Shown here: positions 33,680 to 41,596 of the stretch, piece after piece
Layout of the letters: each line of letters opens with the position of its first letter
Numbering within the stretch: position 1 is the first letter of the stretch
NCBI RefSeq assembly: GCF_023515955.1
Contig: NZ_CP097322.1
Location: 2,999,501-3,063,500 of the forward strand
DNA length: 64,000 nucleotides
From: Streptomyces sp. RerS4
GTDB lineage: Bacteria; Actinomycetota; Actinomycetes; Streptomycetales; Streptomycetaceae
Reading direction: 5' to 3'
Position numbers and translations under genes: made by a program
The notes under the pieces: model-generated
The model's input: the letters and a program-made list of their open reading frames with translations, nothing else
What the model was told of the DNA's origin: nothing
Databases searched by the model: none

Positions 33680-36166
33680 ATGTCGATTTCGCAGCTCTCC
33701 CCGCGGCGCGCCGGCCAGGCCGATTCCACCGCCCGGCCCCGGCGTCTCGCAACGCGTCTCGCCCCGCGTCTGGCCACGCTCCGGTCGCGCCTGTCCGGCC
33801 CGCTCCTCGCGGCGCTCGTCACGGCGGTGGCCGTCTGCGCCGGGGACGCCCTCGCGCGCGTGTTCCCGTACGGTTCGCGCCACCGCAGCGTCAACGACCT
33901 CGGCAACCAGTTCGTGCCCTTCCACGCGCACCTGTGGGACCTGCTGCACGGGCGGGCCGAGGGCGGGCTCCTCTTCAACTGGCAGTCCGGCTACGGCAGC
34001 AGCTTCCTGCCCGACTGGGGCACGTATCTGACGAGTCCGTTCGCCGTGCTGGTGGCGCTGTTCCCGCGCGAGGACATCGACCTCGCCGTGTACGCCGTCA
34101 CCGTGCTCAAGATGACCGCCGCGGCGGCCGCGATGGCCTGGCTGCTGCTCACCCAGCGGCGGGGGCTCTGGTGGGCGGCGGGGCTGCTCGGGGCCTCGTA
34201 CGCGCTGTGCGGCTGGTCGGTGATCGAGGCGGCCTACAACCCGATGTGGCTGGACGGGCTGATCGCCTTCCCGCTGCTGTGCCTGACCGGCGAGTGGGCC
34301 CTGCGGACGCGCCGGCCGGTGACCGGGGTGCTGGTGGTGGCCGTCTGCTGGACGGCGAACTTCTACACCGCGTACATGGCGACGCTCGGCGCGGCGCTGG
34401 TGCTGGTGGTGCGGGTGGTGCTGACCCGGGAGGGGGCGCGCGAGCGTGCCCGGGTGGTGGGGCGGGGGGCGCTGACCTGCCTGCTGGGCATCGCCCTGGC
34501 GGCGCCGGTGCTGGTGCCGCTGTTCCTGAGTTCGAAGCAGGCCTATCCGGGGTGGTCGCGGCAGTTCGGGCCGGTGCCGTGGGCGGACCTGTTCGCGCGG
34601 CTGATGCCGGCGACGTACTCCTTCAACTCCCCGGCCGTGTTCGTGGGGACGGGGACGCTGCTGCTGGTGGCGGCGCTGCCGTTCCACCGGGCGGTGCCGG
34701 CGCGGACGCGCTGGTGGTGGGCCGGTCTGGTGGTGGCGGTGGCCCTGTCGTTGCAGTGGGCGCCGACGCATCTGGCCTGGCACGTCTTCGCGACGCCGAA
34801 CGGCAGCGCGTACCGGCAGACCTTCGTCCTGGCCGGGATCGTGGTGATCGCCGCCTGGACGGGACTCGCCTCGGGCCCGCCGGGGCGCAGGGCCCTGGCG
34901 GCGGGCGCGGGCGTGATCACCGTCGCGGTGCTGTGGTCGGCGACGAGCCCGCTGGCCACGGTGCGGGGGGCGGTCCTGCTCTGCGGCGGGCTGGTCCTCG
35001 CGGCCGGCGCCTGGTGGGCGCTGCGCCGCCCTCGCCTGGTGGGGCCGGCGGCGGCCGTCCTCGGGCTCGTCCTGGTCGCGCAGGCCGCGGCGACCACGGC
35101 CCACGGCCACAAGGGCAAGCTCGCCGGACTGGACGACTACCCGTCCTGGGGCCGCGCCCACACCGCGCGGGCCAACGCGCTGGAGCAGGCCGACGGCTGG
35201 CCCGCGTACCGCACCGACGCGGGGCGGCCCGCGCTGTCCGGCAACGATCCGATGCTGCTCGGCGGTCAGGGCGGCGCGTACTACAGCAGTCACACCCCGG
35301 ACGTGTTCACGCGCACGATGGCGGCGCTCGGCGCGGGCTGGACCTCCCGGGGGCGCAACGTGCAGAGCCTCGACAACCCGGTGACGGACGCGCTGTTCGC
35401 CGTCGGGGCGCGGCTGAAGCCGGACGGCACGGTCGTGCGCTCCGCGTCGCTGCCGCTGGTCACCGTCCGCCCGGCGGGCCCGGCCCCCGCGTACGGGGAC
35501 TCCCCCTTCGCGAACCAGGAACTCCTGCTGGGCGCGAAGGTCTACGAGGACCCGCTCGCCCCCGGCGTCTGCCGGGCGGGGACCGACGCCTTCCTGTGGG
35601 CCCCGGAGTACAACGCCACGGCCCGCCTCGCCGACGGCCGGCCCCTGCGGCTGAACGGCAACGTCCCGCGCAACCGGGCGGCGCTCCAGCCGATGGGCCC
35701 TTCGCACGGCCCCGCGTCGCGGCTCGTCTTCGACCGGCCGGCGCCCGCGGCGTGGACGCTCGCCTGCCTGGACCGGGACCGGCTCGCGCGGGCGGTGTCG
35801 ACCCTGCGCGCCTCCGCCGCCACGTCGGTCGCGGTGTCGGACGCGGGTCTACGGGCCACCCTGCCCGCCGGCGGCGCGGGCACGGCGGTGATCTCCGTAC
35901 CGGCCGTCGCGGGCTGGAGCTGCGACGGGCGGCCCGCCTCGGCCCACCTGGGCCTGCTGGCGGTACCCCTGGACGGCCGCGCCACCACGGTGACCTGCTC
36001 GTTCCGCCCGCCGGGGCTGGTGGCGGGCGGGGCCTTGGCGGCGCTGGCCCTTGCGGCCATGGCGGCGCCCGCGGTGATCCGCAGGCGGGCCGCAACGCGG
36101 GACGCGGTGGGTGGAACGCGGGACGCGGTGGGTCCGACGCGGGGCGCGGTGGGTCAGCGCACCTGA
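33680..36166 (+). CDS. YfhO-family membrane protein
   Basis: An 828-aa integral membrane protein of the YfhO (GT-C-like) family: first TM near residues 40-58, a catalytic-type loop with NDLGNQFVPFHAHLWDLLHG, twelve or so further TM helices up to about residue 480, a large extracytoplasmic C-terminal region and a final TM near 775-795. YfhO proteins in other bacteria are linked to teichoic-acid or glycolipid glycosylation. The C-terminal tail is a 21-bp in-frame repeat (RDAVGGTRDAVGPTRGAVG), and its last 13 bp overlap the convergent kinase gene. Confidence 0.85.
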   Translation: MSISQLSPRRAGQADSTARPRRLATRLAPRLATLRSRLSGPLLAALVTAVAVCAGDALARVFPYGSRHRSVNDLGNQFVPFHAHLWDLLHGRAEGGLLFNWQSGYGSSFLPDWGTYLTSPFAVLVALFPREDIDLAVYAVTVLKMTAAAAAMAWLLLTQRRGLWWAAGLLGASYALCGWSVIEAAYNPMWLDGLIAFPLLCLTGEWALRTRRPVTGVLVVAVCWTANFYTAYMATLGAALVLVVRVVLTREGARERARVVGRGALTCLLGIALAAPVLVPLFLSSKQAYPGWSRQFGPVPWADLFARLMPATYSFNSPAVFVGTGTLLLVAALPFHRAVPARTRWWWAGLVVAVALSLQWAPTHLAWHVFATPNGSAYRQTFVLAGIVVIAAWTGLASGPPGRRALAAGAGVITVAVLWSATSPLATVRGAVLLCGGLVLAAGAWWALRRPRLVGPAAAVLGLVLVAQAAATTAHGHKGKLAGLDDYPSWGRAHTARANALEQADGWPAYRTDAGRPALSGNDPMLLGGQGGAYYSSHTPDVFTRTMAALGAGWTSRGRNVQSLDNPVTDALFAVGARLKPDGTVVRSASLPLVTVRPAGPAPAYGDSPFANQELLLGAKVYEDPLAPGVCRAGTDAFLWAPEYNATARLADGRPLRLNGNVPRNRAALQPMGPSHGPASRLVFDRPAPAAWTLACLDRDRLARAVSTLRASAATSVAVSDAGLRATLPAGGAGTAVISVPAVAGWSCDGRPASAHLGLLAVPLDGRATTVTCSFRPPGLVAGGALAALALAAMAAPAVIRRRAATRDAVGGTRDAVGPTRGAVGQRT

Positions 36167-37668
36167 CCCAGCCACTGCAACGTGCGCCGGACCTCCACCG
36201 GAAGGGGGTGACCGGGGCCGTGCAGGCGGTCCGCGTCGAACAGGAGGCGGACCAGGGTGTCGTGGGCCGCCGCGCGGTCGCCGAGGGAGAGCAGCAGGTG
36301 CGCGATCCGCCGGCGGACCTCCAGCGGCAGGCCCGGGTCCGGGTTGGCGTAGTGGTTCTCGAACAGCGGCAGCAGCGAGCGGTACTCGGCGAGCGCCGCC
36401 GCCGGTTCGCCGAGCTGCTCCAGGCACTGGGCGGCGTCGTAGCGGAAGCGCAGCGCCTGCGGGTCGCCCGCGGGGAACTCCTGCGCCAGGCGCCGCAGTT
36501 CCGGCAGGGCGCGGCGGTACTGTCCGTCGTCCATCAGCGTGGCGGCGTACTGCTTGCGCAGGCTGCGGACCACGGGTGAGTGCTCCCCGTGCTCGGCGGC
36601 CGCCGCCGGGAGGATCCCGCCGAGGATGTCCACGGCGCGGGTCAGCTGGCCCTGGTCGAGGAGCTTGCGGGCCTCGTCGACCGCGCCCGGGATGTCCGGC
36701 CGGGCCGGCGCCGGGGGCGCGGTCGGCCGGGGCGGCACGGCCGCGGCCCGGTCGGGCCAGGGGGCCTGGGGGCGCAGGAAGGGCCGGGTCGGGTCGAGGG
36801 GGCCGGTCGGGAGCCGGCTGCCGCGCGTCGGGAGCATCGGCGCGAGGGCCTCGTAGACCTCCTGCGCGGAGGCGGGGCGGTCCTGCGGGTCCTTCGCGAG
36901 GAGGCGCAGCAGCAGCGCCTCCAGCTCCGGCGGGATGTCGGGGCGCTGTCCGCGCACCGGGAGCGGGGGCTCGTACAGGTGGCGGTGCAGCACCCCGAGG
37001 GCGGTGGAGCCGGCGAAGGGGACGTTGCCGCTGAGGAGTTCGTAGAGCAGCACGCCGAGGGCGTACAGGTCGGTGTACGGGCCGACCGCGCCGCCCATGG
37101 CCTGCTCGGGCGCCATGTAGGCCGGGCTGCCGATGGGGGATCCGGTGCTGGTGAGGCGGGTGGTGTCGGTGTCCATGACGGAGGCGACGCCGAGGTCGAG
37201 GACCAGCACGGTGCCGTCGGGGCGGATCATCACGTTGCGGGGCTTCAGGTCGCGGTGCACGATCGGCACCGCGTGCACGGCCGACAGCACGGCGCACAGC
37301 TGCGCCACCACCGCGACGGCCCACGGCCAGGGGTAGGGGTCGTGTTCGGCGAGGTGGTCGGCCAGGTCGGAGCCCTCGACGTAGCCCATGACCAGGAACA
37401 GTTCGTCGCCGTCGCTGCCCGCGTCGTGGACGGTGACCAGGCCCGGGTGGTCCACCTGCGCGGTGACGCGGCATTCGCGCACGAAGCGGCGGCGCAGTTC
37501 CTCGGCGACGGTGCCGGGGCCGGCGACCTTGTCGGGGCGCAGCAGCTTGACGGCGACGCGACGGTCCAGGCGCCGGTCGTAGGCCGTCCACACCTGGCCC
37601 ATGCCGCCCTGGCCGAGGATGGTGGCGAGCTGGTAGCGCTCGCCGATCAGGCGTTCCGAGTGGCTCAC
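36154..37668 (-). CDS. Soluble serine/threonine protein kinase with TPR-like C terminus
   Basis: A 504-aa Hanks-type kinase: glycine loop LGQGGMGQVWTAYD, catalytic Lys K41 (VAVKLL), catalytic loop VHRDLKPRNV, DLGVAS in place of the usual DFG motif, and the activation segment ending SPAYMAPEQ. There is no TM segment or PASTA repeat. The C-terminal 200 residues form helical repeats (LLDQGQLTRAVDILGGIL, YRRALPELRRLAQEFP) resembling TPRs, probably for protein binding. The DFG-to-DLG change still keeps the Mg-binding Asp. Its ATG overlaps the stop of the upstream gene at 37665. Confidence 0.92.
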   Translation of the reverse strand: MSHSERLIGERYQLATILGQGGMGQVWTAYDRRLDRRVAVKLLRPDKVAGPGTVAEELRRRFVRECRVTAQVDHPGLVTVHDAGSDGDELFLVMGYVEGSDLADHLAEHDPYPWPWAVAVVAQLCAVLSAVHAVPIVHRDLKPRNVMIRPDGTVLVLDLGVASVMDTDTTRLTSTGSPIGSPAYMAPEQAMGGAVGPYTDLYALGVLLYELLSGNVPFAGSTALGVLHRHLYEPPLPVRGQRPDIPPELEALLLRLLAKDPQDRPASAQEVYEALAPMLPTRGSRLPTGPLDPTRPFLRPQAPWPDRAAAVPPRPTAPPAPARPDIPGAVDEARKLLDQGQLTRAVDILGGILPAAAAEHGEHSPVVRSLRKQYAATLMDDGQYRRALPELRRLAQEFPAGDPQALRFRYDAAQCLEQLGEPAAALAEYRSLLPLFENHYANPDPGLPLEVRRRIAHLLLSLGDRAAAHDTLVRLLFDADRLHGPGHPLPVEVRRTLQWLGQVR

Positions 37669-38396
37669 CGGCCCGGGTCCTGGATCGCCGTGCTGTTCGG
37701 GTCCTGGTACGGGCCACCGGGCCGCGGGGGCTGCGGGGGACGGTCCGGGTTCTGTTGGCGCAGCAGCTCGCTCAGCTCGTCCAGCTCGGCGCGGACCTGC
37801 CCGAGGCGCGGGGGCGGGGTCGGCTGCTGGTGCTGCGGGGCGGGCTGTTGGGGCTGCGGAGGCTGCTGCGCCTGCTGCGGCTGCGGGCTCTGCGGCGCCT
37901 GCGGGTAGCCGTAGGACGGCATGGTCTGCTGGGACGGCAGGGGCTGGTGCTGCGGCTGGGGCACCGACTGCTGCGGCTGCTGCGTGTACAAGCCCTGCGG
38001 CCCCGGGTACCAGGGCGCGGCCGGGGTCAGGGCGGCAGCGGCGGCCTTCGCCTCGTGGTGACGGATGTCGGACACGAGGTAGTAGACGCAGACCGCGAAG
38101 CCCGTGAAGATCGAGCCACCGGCGCCGACGTTGCCCTGCCAGCCGTTGGTCTCGGCCGTCGGGTCGAGCTCGATGAAGACGATCCAGAGGATCGACAGCG
38201 CCCCGCTCAGCACCAACAGCGCCCAGTCGCGCGCCCTGCGGGTGAGCAGCGCCAGCCGCAGCAGCGCGCCCCAGGCGAAGAAGCCGCAGGTGAGCACGGG
38301 CAGCGCCGTGAACACCACGCGCAGCGTCAACGCCGCCCCGGACAAGGGCCGGTGGCCGTGAGGGCCTTGCTGCGGCGGGAGGCCGGGGGCGTGCAT
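37665..38396 (-). CDS. Membrane protein with Gln/Pro-rich tail, coupled to the kinase
   Basis: A 243-aa protein with three or four TM helices in residues about 25-130 (LRVVFTALPVLTCGFFAWG, ALLVLSGALSILWIVFIEL, then FTGFAVCVYYLVSDI) and a cytoplasmic tail of about 110 residues dominated by Gln and Pro. It starts at ATG 38396 behind CAGGAG. Its end overlaps the kinase start by 4 bp, so it is probably the kinase's membrane partner or substrate. No named family recognised. Confidence 0.75.
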   Translation of the reverse strand: MHAPGLPPQQGPHGHRPLSGAALTLRVVFTALPVLTCGFFAWGALLRLALLTRRARDWALLVLSGALSILWIVFIELDPTAETNGWQGNVGAGGSIFTGFAVCVYYLVSDIRHHEAKAAAAALTPAAPWYPGPQGLYTQQPQQSVPQPQHQPLPSQQTMPSYGYPQAPQSPQPQQAQQPPQPQQPAPQHQQPTPPPRLGQVRAELDELSELLRQQNPDRPPQPPRPGGPYQDPNSTAIQDPGR

Positions 38397-38520: not shown

Positions 38521-40656
38521 TCAGTCGGGAGTGACGGAGCCGTCGGAGAGCCCGTCGTACAGGCCTTGGACGAGCTGTTCCCCGAGCCGTCCCGCCTGCC
38601 GCAGTACGTCCTCGAACTCGGCGAGCGCGCGGAAGCGGGCCCCGTAGCGGCGCTGTTCGGCCGGCGCGAGGCGGGGCAGCCGCAGGCGCCGTACGTCGAG
38701 CCGGGTGGCGGTGGAGGCGTGGCTGCTGGCGCGGCGGGTGTTGGCGGTGCCGCGCAGGAAGCCGGCGAGGAACCAGGGGTCGAGCGCGGCCGGGTCGGGG
38801 CGCAGGAGTTGGAGGTTGCGGCCGAGGACGGCGCCGGCGCCGCTCGCCGGATCGGCGGTGACGACGCGGGCGATGCCGACGGCGCCGACGACGGGGACGA
38901 CGACGTCGCCGGGTTCGACCACGATCGGCTCCTCGGCGCCGGCCGTCGGGCCGGCCGGGGTGGTCGTGGCGGAGGGCGGGCCGCCGGAGTGGACGTCGTG
39001 TTCGGTGAGCAGGGGCAGTTCGCCGCCGTCCGCGCCGGACGCGGTGGCGGTGGCGGTGCCGGCGCGCAGCAGCAGGGCGCCGGCGCGGGCGAGTTCGCCG
39101 ATGGTGGTCTGCGGCGTGCGGGCGGCGGACCCGTCGGCGGGGGCGGCGGTGGGCGGGGTGAGACGGGCCGCGCGGGAGAGGGTCTCGTCGAGCCGTTCGC
39201 GTACGGCGGTCAGTTCGGCGAGGCCGCCGCCGGCGCCGGGCGGCGGCAGGTGGCGGGCGGGGGTGAGGTCGACCTCGTCGTCCAGCAGCTCCACGACGGG
39301 CACGACCCGGCTCACGCCGGGCACCTCGTCGGTCGCGCCGGTGCGGTCGTACGCGGTCCAGGCGGCCAGTACCGCGTCGTGCACGGCGGGCCACGCGCCC
39401 CGGGGCTGCCCCTGCCCCTGCCCCTCGGGCACCAGGCCGGCGGTGTCCACGAGCAGCAACCCTGCGGGCGCGGGGCCGGCGGGCCGGCGCAGCACCCACA
39501 GCTGGAGCGGGATCCCGTACGGCGGCGCCGCGCCGGCGGGGAGCGAGACGACGGCCCGCAGGGCGCCCCGGCGCAGCAGGTCGGCGCGGATGCGGCGGCC
39601 GGAGCGGCGGGCGGCGACGGCGGGCGGCATGAGCAGCACGGCGGTGCCGCCCTCGCGCAGGTGGGCCAGGGCGTGTTGGACCCAGGCGAGTTCGGATTCG
39701 GTGCGGGCGGGCAGGCCGTACTCCCAGCGGGGGTCGTAGGCCAGTTCCTCGTGGCCCCAGGCGCGTTCGTTGAACGGGGGGTGGCACAGGACGGCGTCGA
39801 CGGCGAGGCCCGCGAAGGTGTCGGCGCGCAGGCTGTCGGCGGCGGCGGCGCGGACCCGGGCGGATCCGTGCAGGGCCAGGCGCAGGGCGGCGAGCGCGGC
39901 CAGTTCGGGCGACACGTCCTCGGCGTGGAGGGCGTCGGCCCCGTCCAGGGCGCGGAGCAGGCCGCCGGTGCCGCAGGCGGGGTCGAGGGCGGTGCGTACG
40001 CCGGGTCCGGCGAGGGCCGCCATCAGGGCGGCGCAGCCGTCGGGGGTGAGGGTGTACTGCCGGGGATTGGCGTCGAGGTGGCGGCCGAGGAGGAACTCGA
40101 AGGCCTTGCGGGCGCCGTCGTCGCGGTATCCGGCCGCGAGTTCGGCGGCGGCGCGCAGGAGCGGGACGGGTGCGCCGCCGGGCCGGCGGCCGAGGGCCGG
40201 GGGGTGGGCGGGGCCGAGGCGGTGGTCGAGCACCTCGGCGGTGGCGTCGGGCAGCAGCGCGGCCATCCGTTCGTCGGAGCCGGCGGTGAGCTCCAACCAC
40301 CGGGCGGGCCGGTCGCGTACGAGGAGCAGTGCGGCGCCGACGTCGACGAGCGCGGCGACGGCTCCGCCGGGGTGGGAGGCGACCTGCTGCCAGACGCGTT
40401 CGCGCAGGGGGACCTCGGCGAGCTTGCCCTGGGCGCGCAGCCAGTTCTCGACGTCGGACAGGGCGAAGGAGGGGCTGGTCTCGGTGCCGCCGACGGGCTT
40501 GGGGAAGTCGGGGTGTCTGCGCCGCCAGTTGCTGACGGCGGCGCGTCCGACGCCGGCCAGGCGGGCGATGCCGGCGGCGGTGACCTCGGCGGTGCGCTCG
40601 GCGGTGACTTCGACGGTGTTCCCTGCGGCGGCGGTGGCCGCGCTGTCCTCCTGCAT
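38521..40656 (-). CDS. Solitary HsdM-like DNA methylase fused to an HsdS-like domain
   Basis: A 711-aa protein built from three parts: an N-terminal helix-turn-helix (ARLAGVGRAAVSNWRRRHPD, about residues 25-50), an N6-adenine-methylase core of HsdM type with the SAM motif DPACGTGGLLRAL and a catalytic-motif equivalent that reads CHPPFNE, and a C-terminal target-recognition-like region (EPGDVVVPVVGAVGIARVV and RRLRLPRLAPAEQRRYG) typical of a type I HsdS half. Canonical motif IV is (N/D/S)PP(Y/F); His replaces the first residue, so activity is doubtful. No restriction subunit is nearby. The start is uncertain: ATG 40656 or GTG 40683, none with a ribosome-binding site. Confidence 0.8.
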   Translation of the reverse strand: MQEDSAATAAAGNTVEVTAERTAEVTAAGIARLAGVGRAAVSNWRRRHPDFPKPVGGTETSPSFALSDVENWLRAQGKLAEVPLRERVWQQVASHPGGAVAALVDVGAALLLVRDRPARWLELTAGSDERMAALLPDATAEVLDHRLGPAHPPALGRRPGGAPVPLLRAAAELAAGYRDDGARKAFEFLLGRHLDANPRQYTLTPDGCAALMAALAGPGVRTALDPACGTGGLLRALDGADALHAEDVSPELAALAALRLALHGSARVRAAAADSLRADTFAGLAVDAVLCHPPFNERAWGHEELAYDPRWEYGLPARTESELAWVQHALAHLREGGTAVLLMPPAVAARRSGRRIRADLLRRGALRAVVSLPAGAAPPYGIPLQLWVLRRPAGPAPAGLLLVDTAGLVPEGQGQGQPRGAWPAVHDAVLAAWTAYDRTGATDEVPGVSRVVPVVELLDDEVDLTPARHLPPPGAGGGLAELTAVRERLDETLSRAARLTPPTAAPADGSAARTPQTTIGELARAGALLLRAGTATATASGADGGELPLLTEHDVHSGGPPSATTTPAGPTAGAEEPIVVEPGDVVVPVVGAVGIARVVTADPASGAGAVLGRNLQLLRPDPAALDPWFLAGFLRGTANTRRASSHASTATRLDVRRLRLPRLAPAEQRRYGARFRALAEFEDVLRQAGRLGEQLVQGLYDGLSDGSVTPD

Positions 40657-40691
40657 GACGGGAGCATACCCGTACACAAGCACGAGATCGC

Positions 40692-40743
40692 TTCACAGCG
40701 TGAATCCAAGAAATCCTGTGAACTTGGTTGACTCGGTTCACAG
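40692..40743. promoter_or_regulatory. Repeated TTCAC/GTGAA operator region
   Basis: Two inverted repeats lie between the divergent methylase-like and lipoprotein genes: TTCAC-AGC-GTGAA (40692-40704) and CTGTGAAC-N12-GTTCACAG (40716-40723 and 40736-40743). The 10-mer TTCACAGCGT occurs twice (40692 and 40737). The HTH domain of the adjacent methylase-like protein is a possible binder. Confidence 0.55.
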
Positions 40744-40840: not shown

Positions 40841-41596
40841 ATGTCCCAGTCCCCCACCCCGCGCACCGGTTGGATCGCCCGCCACAAGGTCCTCACCGGC
40901 TGCGGCGCCGTCCTCACGCTGGCACTGGTGGGAGCGTGCGGCGGCACGGGCACGACCACGACGGACGGCAAGAAGAGCGACGACGGCGGGAAGCCGGCCG
41001 CCTCCTCCCCCGCCGGCGGGTCCGCGAGCGCGGGCAGCGCGAAGCCGAGCGAGGGCGGTCAGAGCTCCAAGCCGGCCGAGGAGAAGAAGCAGGTCGCGAT
41101 CAAGGGCAGCGGAACCTTCCAGGTGGGCTCGGACGTCAAGCCCGGCACCTACCGCACCACCGGCAACAAGGGCATGGGCTGCTACTGGGAGCGCCTCAAG
41201 GACTCCTCCGGCGAGCTCGAATCGATCATCTCGAACGACAACGTGACGGGCGCGAGCTACGTGACCATCGCCGCGTCCGACAAGGTCTTCAAGTCCAACG
41301 GCTGCAAGGACTGGGAGGCCGTCGACCCGAAGGCCACGGGCGGCTCCCCCAAGGTCGAGATCCCCGCCGACGGCGGCATGTTCAAGGTGGGCCTGGACAT
41401 CGCCCCCGGCACCTACAAGTCGACGGGCCCCGCCGAGGGCTCGGCGGGCTGCTACTGGGAGCGGTCCAAGGACGCCGCCCACGGCGTCGACTCGATCATC
41501 TCCAACGAGAACCCCGAGGGCGCGGCGGTCGTCACCATCGCCGCCGGCGACGGCTACTTCAAGACCACGGGCTGCGCCGTCTGGAAGAAGTCCTGA
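40841..41596 (+). CDS. Lipoprotein with two repeated domains
   Basis: A 251-aa exported lipoprotein. The signal ends with lipobox LVGAC (Cys about 33), followed by a Ser/Gly/Lys-rich linker (to about 88). Two homologous domains of about 70 residues follow: the first has GTFQVGSDVKPGTYRTTG...CYWERLKDSS, the second GMFKVGLDIAPGTYKSTG...CYWERSKDAA, each ending in a lone Cys (NGC / TGC) that may pair with the CYW cysteine. Function unknown; such PGTY/CYWER repeats are seen in many actinobacterial surface proteins. CAGGAG precedes ATG 40841. Confidence 0.82.
   Translation: MSQSPTPRTGWIARHKVLTGCGAVLTLALVGACGGTGTTTTDGKKSDDGGKPAASSPAGGSASAGSAKPSEGGQSSKPAEEKKQVAIKGSGTFQVGSDVKPGTYRTTGNKGMGCYWERLKDSSGELESIISNDNVTGASYVTIAASDKVFKSNGCKDWEAVDPKATGGSPKVEIPADGGMFKVGLDIAPGTYKSTGPAEGSAGCYWERSKDAAHGVDSIISNENPEGAAVVTIAAGDGYFKTTGCAVWKKS

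Follow-up and report, generated by a model that had tools for sequence, protein, structure and literature searches.

Transcriptional self-control by DNA methylases is known from Type II systems. The C5-methylases M.SsoII and M.EcoRII are autoregulating enzymes that repress their own promoters through an N-terminal helix-turn-helix (HTH), a feature comparable to that considered here; they differ in being catalytically active cytosine enzymes that function without a kinase. An N6-methylase and a kinase occur together in the MADS system (Mad1, Mad2 methylase, Mad6 kinase; NCBIfam/PADLOC names), where they are encoded by separate genes.

Repressors with operators in the promoters of defence loci are represented by RptR and CapW/BrxR, small or WYL-domain proteins without a methylase fold (PMC12255303, PMC13373217). 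In a further system the kinase CapK phosphorylates the repressor CapS, and the immune operons are opened (PMC13373217). CapK+CapS is a published precedent for a kinase and repressor pair placed over immune operons.

The locus described here lies in a window (the whole stretch of DNA analysed) of 64,000 nucleotides from Streptomyces sp. RerS4 (NZ_CP097322.1, positions 2,999,501 to 3,063,500). As in CapK+CapS (PMC13373217), a kinase is encoded next to a DNA-binding repressor (a predicted one in our case) that would regulate itself, and defence loci hold multiple sites. The proteins are unrelated: a GHKL kinase and a STAS-wHTH repressor make up the published pair, whereas a Hanks-type (Pkinase-family) kinase and an HsdM-derived protein are found here. 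We consider it rather likely that the latter is a DNA-binding repressor which descends from a methylase, regulates itself and has a kinase as partner, and that its relatives in genomic islands control DISARM. This reading is rated no higher because distant clades of the family lack the operator, the operator overlaps a -35-like element, and some loci of paralogues lack a kinase or DISARM.

The fusion protein (711 aa, minus strand, 38521..40656) was delineated from the list of open reading frames, Pfam, PADLOC, an alignment of orthologues and AlphaFold. With the stop at 38521, the ATG at 40656 is a likelier start than the in-frame GTG at 40683; the sequence ahead of this ATG overlaps a TATGCT box recurring upstream of orthologues. 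Residues are numbered from the ATG unless the 720-aa numbering (from the GTG) is indicated. Pfam N6_Mtase matches residues 193-417 (720-aa numbering) with E 2.2e-26, and the PADLOC Type I methyltransferase model PDLC03037 is matched with E 3.4e-119. The C-terminal end matches PADLOC Specificity_I models weakly, from E 4.1e-6, at residues 587-697 (720-aa numbering).

In the AlphaFold model of the 711-aa protein (pLDDT 80, pTM 0.64), the HsdM-like methyltransferase domain (residues 82-474; 39235..40413, minus strand), delimited by Pfam and the structure match, corresponds to Type I M subunits with Z 28 over 363-377 aligned residues. The intact Vibrio MTase 7eew aligns over residues 86-694 with an rmsd of 27.5, so the domains are oriented differently. 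The HsdS-like half (PADLOC, AlphaFold) comprises one target-recognition-like region (residues 515-662; 38671..39114, minus strand) and, after it, a long C-terminal helix. The protein shares the HsdM fold and an HsdS-like half with Type I M.S methylases (PacII M1M2S, 7vru/7vs4; Vibrio MTase, 7eew), but it adds an N-terminal HTH, carries HPPF rather than NPPF, has a partner kinase and a dedicated operator, and stands without HsdR or a separate HsdS.

The N-terminal domain is a winged HTH with a possibly MerR-superfamily-like fold (residues 24-77; 40426..40587, minus strand), placed by the orthologue alignment and by a separate fold and structure search. It was folded and searched apart because the list of structure matches for the whole protein barely tests it. 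Folded alone, it gave RacA, CarH, BmrR and BldC as best matches, all weak (probability up to 0.98, E 0.07 or worse). The stretch ARLAGVGRAAVSNWRRRH in this domain is nearly invariant among 59 orthologues.

An HTH, an HsdM core and an HsdS-like half in one protein without HsdR had been proposed in the original prediction from the sequence alone; this observation is confirmed, and a search of the whole genome with HSDR_N gave no match. Methylase_S, the model for a separate HsdS, likewise gave no match anywhere in this genome, the HsdS-like half being fused. Besides the window protein, N6_Mtase matches there only a PglX-like protein (L002), which falls well short of the cut-off for that family. 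An open frame of 1533 aa at C1:5421289-5424654 encodes it, and it stays under the curated cut-offs.

Motif IV of active N6-adenine methyltransferases has the form [N/D/S]PP[Y/F]. In the window protein it is HPPF (H292; 39772..39783, minus strand), as originally read in place of NPPF, and the same HPPF occurs in all 137 orthologue alignments that cover motif IV. These came from 137 of 138 loci, which were picked as best matches and are partly non-independent (L001 and L003 represent one gene, and certain species are present in two collections); the sole locus without such an alignment is that of the PglX-like protein. The peptide pattern used on named genomes began after the histidine, so it carried no selection for this residue. 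Among 59 orthologues the longer motif HPPFNxRxWGH is invariant, as are D225, G229 and G231 of motif I (DPACGTGGLL; 39955..39984, minus strand) and D274, while residue 247 is D or E throughout. The SAM-binding motif I and its acidic partners are therefore kept, invariant or conservatively replaced, and SAM binding itself is predicted.

Across 179 proteins of the wider actinobacterial family (duplicates mostly removed) the first residue of motif IV is H in 136, N in 32, D in 4, A in 3, S in 2, and G and E in one each; 7 of the 32 N-type proteins are canonical partner MTases. A tree of 74 rows was drawn from this set with the motif IV columns left out. Parsimony gave 13 changes of the motif IV state, 9 of them between N and non-N, N as the cheapest root state and six origins of His from Asn; these counts are approximate, since the tree was built quickly and includes some long branches. 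The Streptomyces sister clade of paralogues keeps NPPF, with HPPF in one member (L190). Catalysis has therefore not been lost throughout the family, given the NPPF of this island sister clade, a point against the regulator reading.

Some family members with NPPY, HPPY or other motifs (L151-L156, L183, L186, L189, L204) adjoin a second, canonical HsdM with ANPPFGV-EW, of which the start or the whole was seen. This arrangement suggests heteromeric M1-M2 methylases.

The window protein itself could be an active orphan N6-adenine methylase with His for Asn, the conserved site described below being its target and methylation of its own promoter an epigenetic switch. An active enzyme would account for the invariance of D225, G229, G231 and D274 and of HPPFNxRxWGH, and about six origins of His suggest selection over plain decay; retention of NPPF in the sister clade could be read the same way. 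However, A, G, S, D and E are likewise tolerated here within the family, having a single site in each genome would be atypical of a methylase, and we know of no catalytic role of His in amino-methyltransferases. An active methylase is therefore considered unlikely. This was one of two readings offered by the original prediction: the conserved SAM-pocket residues still favour it, whereas the fixed His weighs against it. Orthologues with Asn or Asp at this position, which the original prediction named as refuting evidence for the regulator reading, were absent from the 137 alignments, but NPPF is found in paralogues. In the window's copy, which belongs to the His-fixed clade, methylation has probably been lost and the SAM pocket kept; SAM binding without methylation by this His-variant is an attractive idea drawn from residue conservation.

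The operator-like region noted beside the gene is near-invariant in orthologues, and reversed-pattern controls gave zero. It contains a bipartite operator, TGTGAACCGAGTCAAC as read on the minus strand (40727..40742), which is a direct repeat of GTSAAC with a 9-bp pitch. On the opposite strand the operator includes the -35-like TTGACT of the divergent gene (40728-40733, plus strand). A third half-site, TGTGAAC (40717..40723, plus strand), is inverted relative to the operator. Between operator and gene lies a second box, TTCACagcGTGAA (40692..40704, no strand assigned), similar to boxes recurring in many orthologues, and TATGCT (40663..40668, minus strand) is a -10-like element of the fusion gene, recurrent in orthologues on inspection.

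The pattern TGTGAA[CT]-N3-GTCAA[CT] is present within 250 bp upstream of the gene in 131/141 orthologue loci and in 18/60 other family loci; among these 18 are three duplicates, as well as three loci closely related to the orthologue clade. Elsewhere in these loci it was matched 6 times (orthologue loci) and 0 times (other loci), and its reversed version was found 0 times in the same two sets. More distant clades of the family keep the same HTH helix without such an operator. Conservation may be partly that of a promoter, since the GTCAA half equals the -35 consensus on the other strand. With 3 bp between its two halves, the site is, on inspection, unlikely to be an ECF-sigma promoter.

At the level of whole genomes, 104 have an orthologue of at least 60% identity among the matches listed, and 101 of these contain the 16-mer with at most one mismatch, against 1 of 31 genomes without any family match; of the remaining 64, 13 contain it. 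These counts refer to presence anywhere in the genome; in G090 the sole site among the matches listed is not beside the gene. The own genome of the window contains the 16-mer once and nothing else within two mismatches, so control by the window's copy may be confined to the locus in which it lies. A wider regulon derived from one-mismatch sites was dropped, the recurrent variants TGTGAACCGAGTCATC and TGTGAACCGAATCAAC lying inside coding genes in the stretches viewed.

The copy in the window, a His-variant, belongs to a chromosomal locus that is widespread in the genus and has a single operator. Orthologues of at least 60% identity are present, among the matches listed, in at least 104 of 199 genomes of the genus; any family match was obtained in 168/199 and none in 31/199. 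A Ser/Thr protein kinase of 504 aa (36154..37668, minus strand), identified by homology search and motif inspection, contains HRDLK and DLG and has a TPR-like tail. Between the regulator and kinase genes stands the gene of a membrane protein (37665..38396, minus strand) with hydrophobic stretches near residues 21-52, 56-79 and 90-108. In the 64 long orthologue loci (those with at least 13.9 kb), a kinase homologue is located downstream on the same strand in all 64, at a distance of 635-1011 bp, a homologue of the membrane protein in 63 and mfd upstream in 40.

Outside the orthologue clade, 17 of the 47 distinct family loci have a kinase no more than 2 kb away, in same-strand downstream, divergent or convergent position; one of these loci (L167) is a near relative of the clade, and L159 joins the kinase-bearing loci when a longer stretch is examined. 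Among the 30 loci without a kinase, 11 had at least 7.6 kb of flank on at least one side and are thus true misses, while the others have short flanks. Applied to 17 control stretches (78 kb) whose place was not matched, the kinase search gave 0/17.

The divergent gene (40841..41596, plus strand; domain and cluster search) encodes a protein of 251 aa with two Rv1352/Rv1906c domains and an exported-looking N-terminus. A divergent neighbour was called in 134/136 orthologue loci. These neighbours fall into four main unrelated clusters (49, 42, 23 and 15 of 134) while the operator stays constant. A lipobox pattern is present in only 34/134, so not all of them are called lipoproteins.

The sequence TGTGAACNNNGTCAAY was found 36 times in 15 chosen genomes, its reversed control 0 times. 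Twelve of these genomes were picked for having family genes and three for having none; all 36 sites are in the twelve. By position, 7 sites are assigned to orthologues and 12 to regions upstream of paralogues; 14 fall no further than about 50 kb from a paralogue, and the last 3 lie elsewhere. Of the 14 island sites, 5 immediately precede drmA, 4 precede the gene of a large helicase-nuclease and 2 those of kinases; one is beside the start of an Orf5-like gene in reverse orientation, and the other 2 have no assignment. The island stretches were chosen because they had sites, so these positions are a description and no independent test. A few bases past many of the sites, inspection showed a -10-like TAGTAG or TATGTT; these sites thus lie inside a promoter, which fits repression.

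In one island (G136) the genes of an NPPF paralogue, of two kinases and of DrmD are consecutive, and DrmMI, DrmA and DrmB are also present. DrmD is located beside kinases in two further islands (L209, L210); it was not found in the stretches around the paralogues of G156 (L211), G029 (L253, L254) and G173 (L252). A role of the family protein as the DISARM methylase was discarded, since a DrmMI of its own is present in the only island that was read completely. The best 25 of 30 PADLOC hits of the window protein include no DrmMI model, and the island paralogue L210 gave no PADLOC match to DrmMI models at E up to 1e-20.

Sister proteins beside the same operator in anti-phage islands make the family look like a gene regulator made from a methylase. 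The operator could instead be bound by some other regulator, the methylase-like protein being just one target among others: a -35-like element overlaps the site, 3 of the 36 sites are far from any family gene found, and the link between protein and site is predicted from sequence. This is very improbable, since gene and site co-occur (101/104 versus 1/31 genomes) and, of the window genes searched for (mfd, fusion gene, membrane protein, kinase, YfhO-like, divergent gene), the island loci read yielded only the methylase-like family and kinases.

A direct role in defence has also been considered: the protein would be a subunit that senses DNA, the kinase would act as effector, as in parts of MADS or Pgl, and transcription control would not be the protein's main function. 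The kinase resembles Mad6 and PglW, the Mad1 model weakly matches the HTH of the fusion protein, a weak resemblance extends to Mad2, PADLOC places the family under methyltransferases, and paralogues sit in defence islands. The curated cut-offs are not reached by the window proteins: the methylase-like protein scores 25.7 bits against 720 for MAD2, and the kinase 151 bits against 460 for MAD6. Such a role is improbable: neither HsdR nor HsdS is matched anywhere in the own genome, the locus of the window's copy is common to many genomes of the genus and is no island, and the operator pattern indicates transcription control.

Methylase-derived regulation, the other reading of the original prediction, has thus gained strong circumstantial support from the fixed His, the co-occurring operator, the sister and island sites and the partner kinase. 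The regulator would descend from a methylase of HsdM-HsdS type, its putatively MerR-like winged helix, perhaps together with the HsdS-like half, binding the TGTGAAC-NNN-GTCAAY operator. It would repress the divergent gene as well as the operon that encodes it together with the membrane protein and the kinase, and so set its own level. The Ser/Thr kinase of the same operon probably phosphorylates the regulator, which would alter DNA binding and lead to release. Close relatives that share the operator sit in islands, where they probably keep class 1 DISARM and adjacent nuclease genes repressed until infection or stress occurs. In a fuller version, put forward tentatively, Actinobacteria derived a SAM-sensing pseudo-enzyme repressor from a Type I-like methylase, with a cognate Ser/Thr kinase as its switch; island forms would govern entire DISARM islands by way of a dedicated operator, and a His-variant would have become a permanent chromosomal regulator in many Streptomyces.

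For the DISARM-bearing Streptomyces islands, a concrete candidate regulator, kinase and operator are thereby proposed. If true, this would be a natural case of a restriction-type methylase that lost catalysis and was turned into a transcription factor, with NPPF alive in sister genes. No description of the regulator-kinase pair was found in titles and abstract openings, with few subscription journals covered, of the literature on Streptomyces methylomes and pseudo-methyltransferase regulators, or of that on DISARM with Streptomyces, a kinase or regulators. A literature search for SCO3104, covering few subscription journals, gave no match, and the letters of the operator did not occur in the literature text searched.

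Two further observations concern sites apart from family genes. In L251 (G164:C3) an operator site adjoins another Ser/Thr kinase homologue, on a contig apart from the family genes found. In L228 (G079) three clustered operator-like repeats are located at about 2257-2365, apart from the family gene, and adjoin genes resembling, by eye, those of sugar catabolism.
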